DNA of 64,000 nucleotides from Pseudomonas yamanorum (lineage in GTDB: Bacteria > Pseudomonadota > Gammaproteobacteria > Pseudomonadales > Pseudomonadaceae). A program made the translations under genes and the position numbers. The DNA lies in contig NZ_JACARE010000030.1 of NCBI RefSeq assembly GCF_013386765.1, positions 1 through 64,000 of the forward strand, in the 5' to 3' direction. Below, piece after piece: positions 21,870 through 26,561 of this stretch (the stretch's first letter is position 1; every line of letters starts with the position of its first letter). The notes under the pieces are model-generated. The model was not told the origin of the DNA. It saw nothing but the letters and a program-made list of their open reading frames with translations, and searched no databases.

Positions 21870-23189
21870 TTAGTCCGTGGTAATCCGCGAATGCTTGCGG
21901 GTGTCCTTCATGGTCACATACACCAACAGCGACACTGCAATACACGCGGTGACGTACCAGTAGTAGCCGGTTTCCATGCCAATGCTCTTGAACCACAGCG
22001 CGATGTATTCAGCGGTGCCGCCGAAGATCGACACGGTCAGTGCATACGGCAGGCCAACGCCCAGGGCGCGGATTTCGGTAGGGAACAGCTCAGCCTTCAC
22101 CACCGCGTTGATCGAGGTGTAGCCACTGACGATGATCAGCGCCGCCATGATCAGGAAGAACGCGCCCCACCAGGTCTGGATGGTGTGCAGGGTGGTGAGG
22201 ATCGGCACGGTGAACAGGGTGCCGAGGACGCCGAAGGCAATCAGGATCGGCCGACGGCCAACCTTGTCCGACAGCCCGCCGATGATGGGTTGCAAGCACA
22301 TGAACAGAAACAGCGTCGCCGCCGAAATGGTGGTGGAGTCGGAGATGCTCATGCCGACCGTGTTCACCAGGTATTTCTGCATGTAGGTGGTGTAGGTGTA
22401 GAACGCCAGGGTGCCGCCCATGGTCAGGCCGACCACGGTCATCAGTTCCTTGGGGTGGCGCATCAAGGTGCGCATGGCGCTTTCCTTGGCCTTTTCTTTC
22501 TTGGTGAACGACTCGGTCTCTTCCATGCCGCGACGCAGGTACAGCGCCACTACCGCGCACAGCGCGCCGATGGCAAACGGGATACGCCAGCCCCAGTCGT
22601 ACAGCTGCTCGGTGGTGAGGGTCTGTTGCAGCACGATTAGCACGCCAAGGGCGATGAGCTGGCCAGAGATCAGGGTTACGTACTGGAAGCTGGAGTAGAA
22701 ACCCCGACGTTCCTTGGTCGCCATTTCGCTGAGGTAAGTGGCGGAGGTACCGTATTCGCCACCAACCGACAGGCCCTGCAGCAAGCGGGCAAACACCAGC
22801 AGGATCGGTGCGCCGATGCCGATGGCTTCATAGCCCGGGCTCAGGGCAATCAGCAGCGAGCCGAAGCACATCAGGTACACCGAGGCCATCAAGGCTTTTT
22901 TGCGGCCAACCTTGTCGGCGTACAGGCCCATCAGCCAGCCACCGATCGGGCGCATCAGGAAACCCACGGCGAAGATCGCGGCGGTGTTCAGGAGTTGGGC
23001 GGTGGTGTCGCCTTTCGGGAAAAAGGTCTTGGCGAAGTACAGCGAGAATGCGGCGTAGACGTACCAGTCGTACCACTCGACCATGTTGCCGACCGATCCG
23101 CTGAAGATCGACTTGATCCGGCTGGAGGTGGTGCGTGCTTTTGCCGGCGCAGCCGCCGACCCCAGAGGCAGGGAGTTGGAGTTATCCAT
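21870..23189 (-). CDS. kgtP: Alpha-ketoglutarate/dicarboxylate MFS permease (KgtP-like)
   Basis: A 439-residue, 12-helix transporter of the MHS family (proton symporters). It aligns well, from memory, with E. coli KgtP: GNMVEWYDWYVY, FLMRPIGGWLMG, ADKVGRKKAL, RLLQGLSVGGEYGTSATYLSE, TYMQKYLVNTVGM and GGLSDKVGRRP. The predicted substrate is 2-oxoglutarate. The ATG is preceded by AAGGATCC. A -24/-12 sigma-54 promoter lies about 65 bases upstream. The neighbouring mifS-mifR genes encode the sigma-54-type system known in P. aeruginosa to control 2-oxoglutarate uptake. Confidence 0.92.
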   Translation of the reverse strand: MDNSNSLPLGSAAAPAKARTTSSRIKSIFSGSVGNMVEWYDWYVYAAFSLYFAKTFFPKGDTTAQLLNTAAIFAVGFLMRPIGGWLMGLYADKVGRKKALMASVYLMCFGSLLIALSPGYEAIGIGAPILLVFARLLQGLSVGGEYGTSATYLSEMATKERRGFYSSFQYVTLISGQLIALGVLIVLQQTLTTEQLYDWGWRIPFAIGALCAVVALYLRRGMEETESFTKKEKAKESAMRTLMRHPKELMTVVGLTMGGTLAFYTYTTYMQKYLVNTVGMSISDSTTISAATLFLFMCLQPIIGGLSDKVGRRPILIAFGVLGTLFTVPILTTLHTIQTWWGAFFLIMAALIIVSGYTSINAVVKAELFPTEIRALGVGLPYALTVSIFGGTAEYIALWFKSIGMETGYYWYVTACIAVSLLVYVTMKDTRKHSRITTD

Positions 23190-23252
23190 TTAAGGATCCT
23201 TCATCTAATTGTTTTTGTGGAGCGCGCGCTAGCGCAGCCTGGTCGGGGCTAT

Positions 23253-23268
23253 AGCAGGAGCTGTGCCA
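23253..23268 (-). promoter_or_regulatory. Sigma-54 promoter of kgtP
   Basis: Read on the minus strand: TGGCACA-GCTC-CTGCT, matching TGGCACR-N4-YTGCW, with GG and GC at the correct spacing. Expected transcription start is near 23243, giving a leader of about 53 bases to the kgtP ATG. Confidence 0.75.
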
Positions 23269-23298
23269 AACAGGTGAAGGCCCGGTCTAGAAGGGTTT

Positions 23299-23356
23299 GC
23301 GGAAATTTTTGAGCGGAAAGTTGCTGATGAATCAAGGGGCGTGAGCGGAAATCCGC
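23299..23356. promoter_or_regulatory. GCGGAAA repeats, candidate MifR enhancer
   Basis: Three direct copies of GCGGAAA start at 23299, 23313 and 23345; the last forms the near-palindrome GCGGA-AA-TCCGC (23345-23356). They lie about 35-90 bases upstream of the -24 element of kgtP, within the usual range for a sigma-54 activator. The assignment to MifR is inference from position only. Confidence 0.4.
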
Positions 23357-23373
23357 TTATGGTTGCGGGCCTC

Positions 23374-23445
23374 ATCGCAGGCAAGCCAGCTCCCACCTTT
23401 GAATGTATTCACAAATCAAAAGGTGGGAGCTGGCTTGCCTGCGAT
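23374..23445. repeat. REPIN (GTGGGAGC family), inverted arrangement, copy 6
   Basis: ATCGCAGGCAAGCCAGCTCC and its inverse, extended by CACCTTT/AAAGGTG arms into one long hairpin, lie between mifR and the kgtP control region. Confidence 0.9.
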
Positions 23446-23475
23446 GGCGCCCCACCCGGCGATACAAGAACCGGT

Positions 23476-24801
23476 TTAGAGGAACGAGTCCCGCGCCAAG
23501 CCATGGCGCTGCATCTTTTCATTGAAGGTGCGCCGGGGCAGTTGCAGTTCGGCCAGCACCGCCTTGATATCGCCTTTGTGCCGGGTCAGCGCGGCTTTCA
23601 GGCAGTGGGCTTCAAATGCTTCCTGCTGGGCCGCCAGGGATTGCCCGGCTTCGATGCCTTCCGGCTCCGGTTCACCCAGCCCCAGTACCTGGCGCTCGGC
23701 GACGTTGGCCAGTTCCCGCACATTGCCCGGCCAGTCATGGCTGAGCAGGCGGCCCAGCGCCGGCCCGCTCAACGGTGCAAAGTTGCGGCCCAGGCGTTCG
23801 GCGGCGCTGTGTGCAAAGTGCTCGAACAGCAGCGGAATGTCTTCCCGGCGCTCGCGTAGCGGTGGCAGGCGCAGTTGCGCGACGGTCAGGCGGTAGGCCA
23901 AATCCTCGCGAAAGCGTCCGGCACGGGCTTCATCCAGCAGGTCCGGCTTGGTGGCGGCGATGATCCGCAAGTCCACCTTGATGCTTTGATTGGAGCCGAG
24001 CCGCTCCAGCTTCTGCTCCTGCAACACCCGCAGCAATTTCACCTGCTGGGCCAGGGGCATGCTTTCGATCTCATCAAGAAACAGCGTGCCACCGTCGGCG
24101 TATTCCAGCTTGCCAATGCGCTTGCCCTGGGCGCCGGTAAACGCGCCACTTTCATGGCCGAACAGCTCGGCTTCAAACAGCTGCTCGGGAATCGCTGCGC
24201 AGTTCAGCGCCACAAACGGCTTCTTCGCACGGGGGCCGAAATCATGCAGGCAACGGGCGACCAGTTCCTTGCCGCTGCCGGTTTCGCCGCGAATCAGCAC
24301 GTTGACCGGAAGACCTGCCAGGTCCAGCACTTGCCGGCGCAGGTTCTGCAAACCCCGGGACACCCCCAGCAGGCTGGATTCCAGTTGGGCCCGGTGATCG
24401 GCCTGTTGATGCAGGCGGCGGTTTTCCAGCACCAGGCCGCGCTTGTCCAGCGCCCGGCGCAGGCTGCTGAGCAGGGCTTCGGGGCTGAAGGGTTTTTCGA
24501 GGAAGTCGTAGGCGCCATCGCGCATGGCTTCGACGGCCATCGGCACATCGCCGTGGCCGGTGAGCAGAATCACCGGCAGGTCGGCGTCGCGCCGCTGCAC
24601 TTCGGCCAGCAACTCCAGCCCGCTGAGGCCGGGCATGCGCACATCGCTCAGGATCACCCCGGGAAAATCCCTGGGCAATTGCGCCAGGCATTCCTCGGCA
24701 CGGCTGAACAGCTGCACCTCAAAGCCCGACAGGCTCAGCCATTGCTCGACGGCCGTGCGAATGCTGGCTTCGTCGTCGACCACAATCACCGCATTCAACA
24801 T
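23476..24801 (-). CDS. mifR: Sigma-54-dependent response regulator MifR
   Basis: A 441-residue NtrC-family activator. The receiver domain (about 4-118) has Asp9/Asp10 and phospho-acceptor Asp53. The AAA+ domain (about 145-370) has Walker A GETGSGKE, the sigma-54 contact loop GAFTGA and Walker B FLDEIE. A Fis-type helix-turn-helix lies at the C-terminus (DIKAVLAELQLPRRTFNEKM). Its ATG lies within the last codons of the kinase gene (7-base overlap). Next to kgtP with a -24/-12 promoter, it corresponds to MifR of P. aeruginosa, needed for growth on 2-oxoglutarate; DctD of the dicarboxylate system is a close relative. Confidence 0.9.
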   Translation of the reverse strand: MLNAVIVVDDEASIRTAVEQWLSLSGFEVQLFSRAEECLAQLPRDFPGVILSDVRMPGLSGLELLAEVQRRDADLPVILLTGHGDVPMAVEAMRDGAYDFLEKPFSPEALLSSLRRALDKRGLVLENRRLHQQADHRAQLESSLLGVSRGLQNLRRQVLDLAGLPVNVLIRGETGSGKELVARCLHDFGPRAKKPFVALNCAAIPEQLFEAELFGHESGAFTGAQGKRIGKLEYADGGTLFLDEIESMPLAQQVKLLRVLQEQKLERLGSNQSIKVDLRIIAATKPDLLDEARAGRFREDLAYRLTVAQLRLPPLRERREDIPLLFEHFAHSAAERLGRNFAPLSGPALGRLLSHDWPGNVRELANVAERQVLGLGEPEPEGIEAGQSLAAQQEAFEAHCLKAALTRHKGDIKAVLAELQLPRRTFNEKMQRHGLARDSFL

Positions 24802-26561
24802 AGTTCTGGCGTCTCCAGGGCGATGGGCAAGGTCAGGGTAAAGATCGCTCCGTCACCTTGATTGCCGGCGCTCAGGCGGCCGCCGAGTTCGTGGACGATA
24901 GCGTACGACACTGCAAGGCCGAGGCCGAGCCCGTCGCCCACCGGTTTGGTGGTGAAGAACGGGTCGAACACGCTGTTGAGGTGTTCTTCGGCGATCCCGC
25001 CGCCGCTGTCGCTGACGGTCAGGCGCCACAGTTGCTGGTCGGCGTGCAGACGGATCTCCAGGCGCTTGCGCGGCTTGTCGGCCATGGCGTCGAGGGCGTT
25101 GCGCAGCAGGTTGATCATTACCTGTTCCAGGCGAATCGCGTCGCCGCGGACCCAGGCCGGGCGGGTCAGGTCGAGGACTGTGCCGATGGCTTCGTCCCGC
25201 AGGCGGGCGTCGAGCAAGTGCAGGGACTGGTCCACCACTGTGGCCAGGTCGAGGCGTTCGCGCAGGCCGCTGGGGCTCTTGCGGGCGAAGGTCTTGAGGT
25301 GGCCGGTGAGGGCGGCCATGCGCGTGAGCATGTCGTCCAGCGGGGTCAGGGCCTGGTAGGCGTCGTCCACCCGGCCGTGGTCCAGCAGCAGCCGCAGGGT
25401 TGCCAACTGCATGCGCTGGGCGGTCAAAGGCTGGTTGATCTCGTGGGCCAGGGCGGCAGACATCTGCCCCAGCGCCGCGAGCTTGGCGGACTGCACCAGG
25501 CCATCCTGGGCGGTGCGCAAGGCGCGGGTGCGTTCTTCCACCAGTTGTTCAAGTTCTTCACGGCTGCGCTGGCGCAAGCGGGCCAGGCGCCAGCGTTGAG
25601 TCAGGAACAGCACCAGGAACACCAGCGCCAGCCACGAACCGGCGGCAGCGAGGCCGGCGTTGCGTTGGTCTTCAAAGGCAACCTGTGGCTTGCGCAGCAG
25701 GTGCAAGGTCCAGCCTTCGGCCTTCAGCGGCAGGGATTCCCAAATGTAGTTGGCCTTGCCGTCGGGGCCGTCGACGCGCATCAGGTGGCTGTTTTCGTCA
25801 AAGCGCTGCAAGGCTTCGGCGTCCAGCGGCAGCAGTTGTTTCTTGTCGTATTGGCGCGTGGCCTTGAGTTCGGCGTGGTCGCTGTCCGACAACGGGCGCA
25901 GCGCGCGGTAGCGCCAGCCCGGCTGGTTGGCGATAAACACAATGCCCCGGGCATCGCTGACCAGCAGCAGGTCATTGCCCTGGGCCCATTCGCGCTCCAG
26001 TTCGGGGAATTCCAGCTTGACCACCATGGCGCCGAGGAACTGTTCGTTCTCGCCCACCACCGCACTGGACAGGAAATACCCTGGAATCCCGGTGGTCACC
26101 CCCACCGCATAGAAGCGCCCGGTGCCCTGGCTCAGGGTCTGGCTGAAGTAGGGGCGAAACGCGTAGTTGTGTCCCACATAACTGCTGGGCAGGTTCCAGT
26201 TGCTGGCGGCCACGGCCAGGCCGTTGCGGTCCATCAATTCCAGGGTGGAAGATTGGGCGGCGCCGTTGATGCGCTCCAGCTTGCGGTTGAGCAAATCCTG
26301 GGTGGCGGTGTCCAGCGGGCCTTTCAAGGCGCTGATCATCTCCGAGTCGAGGGCCAGCACGGCGGGCAGGGCGCGGTAGCGTTCGATCAGGGTGTGCAGC
26401 GAGTTGCCATAGAGCATGAGCTGCTGATTGGCGCGGGCGGCGTCGTCCACCAGGGCCAGGCGTTCGGCGTGGCGGGTGGCCAAGGCGGCAGCCAGCATCG
26501 CACCGGCAATGATCAGCAGGGAGTAGAAGGTCAAACGCAACGGGCGGGGGATCGCGATCAT
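24795..26561 (-). CDS. mifS: Sensor histidine kinase MifS (DctB-like)
   Basis: A 588-residue membrane kinase. Helix 1 spans about residues 9-29, a periplasmic dCache sensor about 35-295 (with HNYAFRPYFSQTL and GIPGYFLSSAVV), and helix 2 about 303-322. A short coiled coil follows, then the HisKA domain with His373 in AALAHEINQPL, and an ATPase domain with NLLRNALDA and GLGLAVSYAIV. The open frame runs upstream into a REP element, so I start at the ATG at 26561, where the transmembrane helix begins. It probably senses 2-oxoglutarate or related dicarboxylates and phosphorylates MifR. Confidence 0.9.
   Translation of the reverse strand: MIAIPRPLRLTFYSLLIIAGAMLAAALATRHAERLALVDDAARANQQLMLYGNSLHTLIERYRALPAVLALDSEMISALKGPLDTATQDLLNRKLERINGAAQSSTLELMDRNGLAVAASNWNLPSSYVGHNYAFRPYFSQTLSQGTGRFYAVGVTTGIPGYFLSSAVVGENEQFLGAMVVKLEFPELEREWAQGNDLLLVSDARGIVFIANQPGWRYRALRPLSDSDHAELKATRQYDKKQLLPLDAEALQRFDENSHLMRVDGPDGKANYIWESLPLKAEGWTLHLLRKPQVAFEDQRNAGLAAAGSWLALVFLVLFLTQRWRLARLRQRSREELEQLVEERTRALRTAQDGLVQSAKLAALGQMSAALAHEINQPLTAQRMQLATLRLLLDHGRVDDAYQALTPLDDMLTRMAALTGHLKTFARKSPSGLRERLDLATVVDQSLHLLDARLRDEAIGTVLDLTRPAWVRGDAIRLEQVMINLLRNALDAMADKPRKRLEIRLHADQQLWRLTVSDSGGGIAEEHLNSVFDPFFTTKPVGDGLGLGLAVSYAIVHELGGRLSAGNQGDGAIFTLTLPIALETPELC

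Follow-up and report, generated by a model that had tools for sequence, protein, structure and literature searches.

The mifS-mifR-kgtP locus

We analyzed a stretch of 64,000 nucleotides of Pseudomonas yamanorum (contig NZ_JACARE010000030.1, positions 1 to 64,000; here called the window), which carries on its minus strand the two-component genes mifS and mifR, followed by the permease gene kgtP with a sigma-54 promoter element upstream. The product of mifS (24795..26561) is a DctB-like sensor histidine kinase of 588 amino acids with a periplasmic dCache-type sensor; the best solved relative of residues 28-288 was DctB (2zbb, 3e4o; E ~1e-41). mifS overlaps by 7 bases with mifR (23476..24801), which encodes a response regulator and sigma-54 activator of 441 amino acids. 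In Pfam, MifR matched a receiver (PF00072), an AAA+ (PF00158) and a Fis-type helix-turn-helix (HTH) domain (PF02954), an architecture of the NtrC/DctD type, with GAFTGA starting at residue 219 in the AAA+ domain. The original prediction for this DNA had named a DctB-like kinase and a sigma-54 activator with GAFTGA as the neighbours of kgtP, and both were confirmed.

After a gap of 286 bp, mifR is followed by kgtP (21870..23189), encoding a metabolite/H+ symporter of the MFS superfamily (439 amino acids, 2-oxoglutarate permease family). KgtP scored above the NCBIfam cut-offs of the PRK10406 subfamily (566.8 bits; cut-off 550) and of TIGR00883 (446.8; cut-off 443.45) and matched Sugar_tr and MFS_1 in Pfam. 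It is 83% identical to KgtP of G241, a genome of genus g9 that we took as P. aeruginosa because it matches a published PA5530 quantitative PCR primer exactly (a match present in 1 of 25 genomes of that genus), indicating orthology to PA5530. Genus g12 was rejected as the P. aeruginosa genus, the primer occurring in 0 of 18 g12 genomes. In a quick tree of 60 MifR rows, calculated without bootstrap, the window MifR grouped with kgtP-linked MifR proteins (Shimodaira-Hasegawa-like approximate likelihood-ratio test (SH-aLRT) support of the clade, 98). The locus is a MifSR-KgtP unit for 2-oxoglutarate uptake as found in fluorescens-type Pseudomonas, well conserved and ordinary, and the expected ortholog of a studied system.

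Expression of PA5530 needs MifS and MifR and responds to 2-oxoglutarate; RpoN is required for growth, which PA5530 restores (PMC4482717). Activation of PA5530 by MifR and sigma-54 is also described in PMC7962211 and PMC8657755. MifS is specific for 2-oxoglutarate and glutarate (PMC7654740, reporting Sarwar 2020), and its dCache domain groups with DctB (PMC8694187). The mifR gene of SBW25 is PFLU4954 (PMC10482368).

A conserved sigma-54 element upstream of kgtP

The sigma-54 promoter element TGGCACAGCTCCTGCT (-24/-12) lies at 23253..23268 on the minus strand, and kgtP begins 63 bases past it. The motif TGGCACA-N4-CTGCT, which had been predicted upstream of kgtP, was found exactly there (23268-23253). 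This was its single exact match in the window, compared to 0.01 expected in shuffles; note that the pattern was composed after the site had already been seen. A degenerate sigma-54 consensus with up to 2 mismatches gave 14 matches in the window against 18.3 expected, and we therefore rejected any significance resting on the degenerate consensus by itself. What places the element beyond chance is its position and conservation. TGGCA(C/T)-N5-NTGC(A/T) was present upstream of kgtP in all 70 genus promoters (the window, 29 further loci and another 40 loci, some of them picked for distance) and began 72-103 bases ahead of the start codon. Likewise, 79 of 80 named loci have a sigma-54 element before kgtP, the remaining locus having no upstream sequence on its contig. 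With a relaxed pattern, no sigma-54 site was found in the 239 bases before mifS. For P. aeruginosa, PMC4482717 reports a strong -12/-24 element upstream of PA5530 and none obvious before mifS.

From the position of the -12 GC, transcription is predicted to start 12 bases further at about 23242 (minus strand), within one base of the originally suggested start near 23243. The predicted 5' leader contains AAAAACAA (23209..23216, minus strand), a relaxed match (AANAANAA) to the target of Crc catabolite repression. AANAANAA occurred in 70 of 70 genus kgtP leaders, a count taken on homologous leaders without a chance control, and the stretch at 23209-23216 did not match the stricter Crc pattern AAYAAYAA. 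A Crc signature has been reported for PA5530 (PMC4482717).

Alternatively, most kgtP transcription might come from a sigma-70 promoter or from mifR read-through, the sigma-54-like element being incidental. Such an arrangement would fit the co-directional orientation of mifR and kgtP and the chance-level frequency of degenerate sigma-54 matches in the window. However, it would leave unexplained why the element is conserved in 70 of 70 promoters within a narrow distance range, why it is retained in 9 of 9 promoters in which kgtP lies 0.7-11.7 kb from mifR (L066-L074), and why it is accompanied by the dyad pair described below; the ortholog, moreover, has published RpoN dependence. We thus regard this explanation as extremely improbable.

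Paired dyads as a candidate MifR operator

Alignment of the genus promoters on the sigma-54 element revealed two upstream dyads with the consensus RGCGGANNTCCGCY (GCGGA-NN-TCCGC). In the window, the distal dyad of this proposed MifR operator (AGCGGATTTCCGCT; 23344..23357, minus strand) agrees with the consensus at 12 of 12 positions. The proximal dyad (AGCAACTTTCCGCT; 23312..23325, minus strand), 32 bp from the distal one, agrees at 9 of 12. Promoters were scored for the best dyad pair at any spacing of 18-60 bp, with dinucleotide shuffles as the control. In 64 of the 70 genus kgtP promoters, the top-scoring pair was spaced 31-33 bp, compared to 5.9% in shuffles; this count is descriptive because the consensus was derived from these same promoters, and the other sets come closer to a test. 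Outside the genus, 14 of 20 kgtP promoters, among them that of P. aeruginosa, also scored highest at 31-33 bp (6.8% in shuffles). This spacing was likewise best in 7 of the 9 promoters at L066-L074, where 0.7-11.7 kb separate kgtP from mifR, and in 6 of the 8 promoters of the aeruginosa genus with a distant kgtP (L222-L228, L263). Thus, the dyad pair goes with kgtP, since it is present also where kgtP is far from mifR. Upstream of the sigma-54 element, the distance to the centre of the proximal dyad was 49-51 bp in 54 of the 64 genus promoters and 62 bp in 2; in 11 of the 14 other-genus promoters the proximal dyad stood 60-63 bp before the element, about one helical turn further.

The exact 14-mer AGCGGANNTCCGCT occurs once in the 7.09-Mb genome, upstream of kgtP. 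When one mismatch was allowed, the dyad pattern was found at 9 places in this genome, compared to 18 for a reversed control pattern. A sigma-54 element within 220 bases was present at the kgtP site alone, and the partner dyad at this site (9/12) was the best of the nine; the next best (L188) scored 8 and had no sigma-54 element. A wide MifR regulon in this genome was rejected on the ground that no dyad site other than that of kgtP is near a sigma-54 element, a look that sites with both dyads weaker would escape. The predicted MifR regulon is very small; with the pattern applied, it comprises a single gene of this genome. A half-site, TTTGCGGAAAT, near 23297 was dropped as it was no regular feature of the aligned promoters.

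The two dyads are probably MifR binding sites. The HTH core LPRRTLNEKMQRHG is common to 26 kgtP-linked MifR proteins and 30 MifR proteins linked to TAXI-type transporters (see below), with at least 90% agreement per position; the window MifR has F in place of L. The genome also encodes two MifR paralogs with 53-55% identity, and another DctD-type activator of this kind could in principle occupy the dyads in place of MifR. However, the HTH cores of these two nearest paralogs (AKTTLFDKVKKYGL and PRKTLHDKLRKHGL) differ from LPRRTLNEKMQRHG and are unlike the MifR core, and the dyad pair accompanies genes that are known, or proposed in this analysis, as MifR targets. Binding by a paralog is therefore very unlikely. 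In the literature on MifR and TAXI available to us in part, we found no description of the dyad pair as a MifR site or of a link between MifSR and TAXI, with the reservation that the repeats in Fig. 13 of PMC4482717 may include the dyads. According to the legend of that figure, the PA5530 promoter contains three direct-repeat pairs, and a motif is in common with the mifS promoter; if these repeats include the dyads, as they may, this would be an earlier description of them.

An inverted repeat with 34-nucleotide arms (94% complementary) is located between mifR and the operator at 23367..23452. Its core, GGAGCTGGCTTGCCTGCGAT, occurs at 11 places in the window (plus strand, 7395, 16743, 19038, 23426 and 30415; minus strand, 4634, 12639, 16698, 19099, 23374 and 30353), often as inverted pairs between genes, of which the pair between mifR and the kgtP operator is one. 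We take it as a dispersed repeat of the window and not as part of the switch.

Model of kgtP control

These observations suggest the following sequence of events. The periplasmic dCache-type domain of MifS would sense external 2-oxoglutarate, upon which MifS would phosphorylate MifR. MifR would then bind the tandem dyads at 23344-23357 and 23312-23325, ~108 and 76 bp upstream of the predicted start, and contact sigma-54 RNA polymerase at 23268-23253, switching kgtP on. We consider it very probable that the locus operates in this way, as a MifSR-KgtP unit in which MifS senses 2-oxoglutarate and MifR, bound to the dyads, activates kgtP together with sigma-54. The parts of the unit, their geometry and their conservation can be read directly from the sequence. 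Its ligand, signalling and RpoN dependence are presumably those of the P. aeruginosa orthologs.

Several points weigh against this model. The Pfam dCache_1 match of MifS (23.1 bits) is below the cut-off of 45, and the listed NCBIfam models for MifR and MifS were all under cut-off; the names mifS, mifR and kgtP were assigned by orthology to the P. aeruginosa genes. The proximal dyad of the window is imperfect (9/12). A spacing other than 31-33 bp scored higher in 6 of 70 genus and 6 of 20 other-genus kgtP promoters, and in 8 of the 64 genus promoters with the dyad pair the distance from the pair down to the sigma-54 element is 107-166 bases, compared to the usual ~50. The surveyed genomes are related, so that the counts are not independent events, and for this organism MifR binding, kgtP induction and the start site are predictions from sequence. 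Conservation (70/70), a paired operator-like site and the published genetics of the P. aeruginosa orthologs (PMC4482717) together give strong support to a sigma-54/MifR link to kgtP. Sigma-54/MifR control of kgtP, the core of the original prediction, is thus very likely right.

Gene order in related genomes

Next to the control of kgtP, the original prediction had stressed the compact layout of the locus, noting that activator and permease genes are far apart in P. aeruginosa. The latter holds: in G241, mifSR and kgtP are separated by ~16.5 kb and lie on opposite strands. The layout is not special to this genome, however. We surveyed 149 genomes of the genus and, at the chosen E-value limits, found kgtP in 124 and mifR in 140, with mifR present in all 124 kgtP-bearing genomes. 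kgtP is located directly downstream of mifR, on the same strand and within 600 bp, in 113 of these 124; it is 0.7-11.7 kb downstream on the same strand in 10, and on a different contig in 1. Genes between mifR and the kgtP operator were seen at L067, L069, L070, L072 and L074; judged by eye, they resemble fimbrial, PAS-kinase-like or Hsp70-like genes. Among the named loci, mifR and kgtP are adjacent (within 700 bp) in 74 of the 75 with enough flank, the exception being L178; five more reach a contig edge. We also inspected a family sample of 79 genomes by eye; in 24 of 36, no more than 600 bp separate kgtP from mifR. Genus g9, the aeruginosa genus and the main exception, accounts for seven of the other 12 and has the genes adjacent in 1 of 8 genomes. 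The impression of novelty was misleading because the comparison with P. aeruginosa used this exception (7 of 8 g9 genomes non-adjacent).

MifSR linked to TAXI-type transporters

Sixteen genus genomes have mifR and lack kgtP. We analyzed 17 mifR loci, from 15 of these genomes and the second mifR copies of G001 and G142, both of which also have kgtP. In 14 of the 17 (12 kgtP-less genomes and both second copies), a TAXI receptor and a fused TRAP permease are encoded downstream of mifR, the families being assigned by name at L086. No TAXI-type transporter was present in the stretch examined at L093 and L101. At L102 (G027), a MifR of 78% identity is followed by a KgtP-like permease (56% identity), and the dyad pair and a sigma-54-like element are both present, perhaps another transporter exchange. 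The window genome has no such TAXI receptor at an E-value of 1e-100.

The sigma-54 element before the TAXI gene is TGGCACGGCATCTGCT in 10 of 14 loci. Ten of 14 TAXI promoters of the genus had 31-33 bp as their best dyad spacing, compared to 7.1% in shuffles; for other genera the figures were 15 of 17 and 6.2%. Seven of these 17 came from genus g15, in which TAXI and mifR are not neighbours. The TAXI-promoter dyads are weaker, with 17-22 of 24 consensus positions. No dyad pair was found before the TAXI genes of genomes with kgtP beside mifR (0 of 3). In two g17 genomes (L246 and L247; G164 and G186), mifR, a KgtP-like permease (55-57%) and TAXI share one locus, each transporter having its own dyad pair and sigma-54-like element. 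In genus g4, a sigma-54 element precedes kgtP (G151, G167) and TAXI (G151); a dyad pair is found before TAXI, and a single strong dyad stands out before kgtP. Thus, one switch design appears, from these promoter comparisons, to drive unrelated transporters, KgtP and the TAXI-type TRAP system.

In the MifR tree, kgtP-linked proteins, whether near kgtP or far from it, form one clade (SH-aLRT 98), and a single label change separates them from the TAXI-linked proteins, which fall outside this clade in two lineages. The tree gives no order for the resulting three-way fork and does not settle the direction of transporter exchange; therefore, TAXI may be the older partner. G001 (L099/L296) and G142 (L100/L297) each encode two MifR proteins, one linked to kgtP and one to TAXI. 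In the quick tree, the kgtP-linked ones of these two genomes cluster with genus g12 (support 82), possibly a sign of horizontal acquisition.

With moderate confidence, we propose that the Pseudomonadaceae contain several ancient MifSR lineages with a common operator code (two dyads ~32 bp apart and a sigma-54 site), and that these lineages serve unrelated transporters, KgtP in one clade and TAXI in the others, some genomes having both under the same type of operator. The transporter would have been swapped while sensing and operator were kept, and the TAXI branch would represent an uncharacterised 2-oxoglutarate uptake system. In this branch, operator and HTH are legible in the sequence; ligand and substrate are inferred. 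Alternatively, TAXI may carry glutamate or another acid, which its MifS would sense in place of 2-oxoglutarate. VcGluP of V. cholerae prefers glutamate (PMC11574862), and in residues 1-310 of the MifS sensors, 21 positions are fixed differently between 8 kgtP-type and 15 TAXI-type kinases. On the other hand, 76 positions of this region are invariant across both groups, a 2-oxoglutarate-specific TAXI is known in Proteus mirabilis (Roden 2023, cited by PMC11574862), and the two g17 genomes combine a KgtP-like permease and TAXI in one locus with a dyad pair and sigma-54-like element for each. We consider a different acid as substrate and signal less likely than 2-oxoglutarate, but a serious alternative.

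The comparison further predicts that in kgtP-less Pseudomonas, 2-oxoglutarate enters through a TAXI TRAP transporter controlled by a related MifSR pair. Such an exchange of transporters would offer a clean case for how a regulator keeps its operator while the target transporter is swapped.

Comparison with known systems

The closest known system is MifSR (PA5512/PA5511) with PA5530 of P. aeruginosa, which has the orthologous sensor, activator, permease and sigma-54 promoter. G241 has a similar dyad pair (22/24, 31 bp apart); unlike in G241, kgtP of the window is directly downstream of mifR. To this system the comparison adds a concrete candidate MifR operator pair, a single predicted target and the TAXI branch.

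In uropathogenic E. coli, the two-component sigma-54 activator system KguSR likewise switches a 2-oxoglutarate transporter gene, C5038, with inverted repeats for KguR (PMC5318444). However, C5038 is without homology to KgtP, and kgtP of E. coli is not sigma-54 dependent (PMC5318444); the window gene is KgtP and not C5038. The DctB/DctD systems for C4-dicarboxylates, with DctA or DctPQM, have the same sensor and activator family and the same logic (PMC7962211) but differ in transporter and ligand class. The neighbouring gene in the window encodes neither DctA nor DctPQM but an MFS permease, and the two nearest MifR paralogs of the genome have a different HTH. Among the 9 dyad sites, kgtP alone has the partner dyad and the sigma-54 element, the dctA and dctPQM promoters lying outside that look. 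Finally, the 2-oxoglutarate TAXI TRAP known from Proteus mirabilis (Roden 2023, cited by PMC11574862) is of the transporter type that we find beside the other MifR lineages, and the substrate of the Pseudomonas TAXI may be the same.
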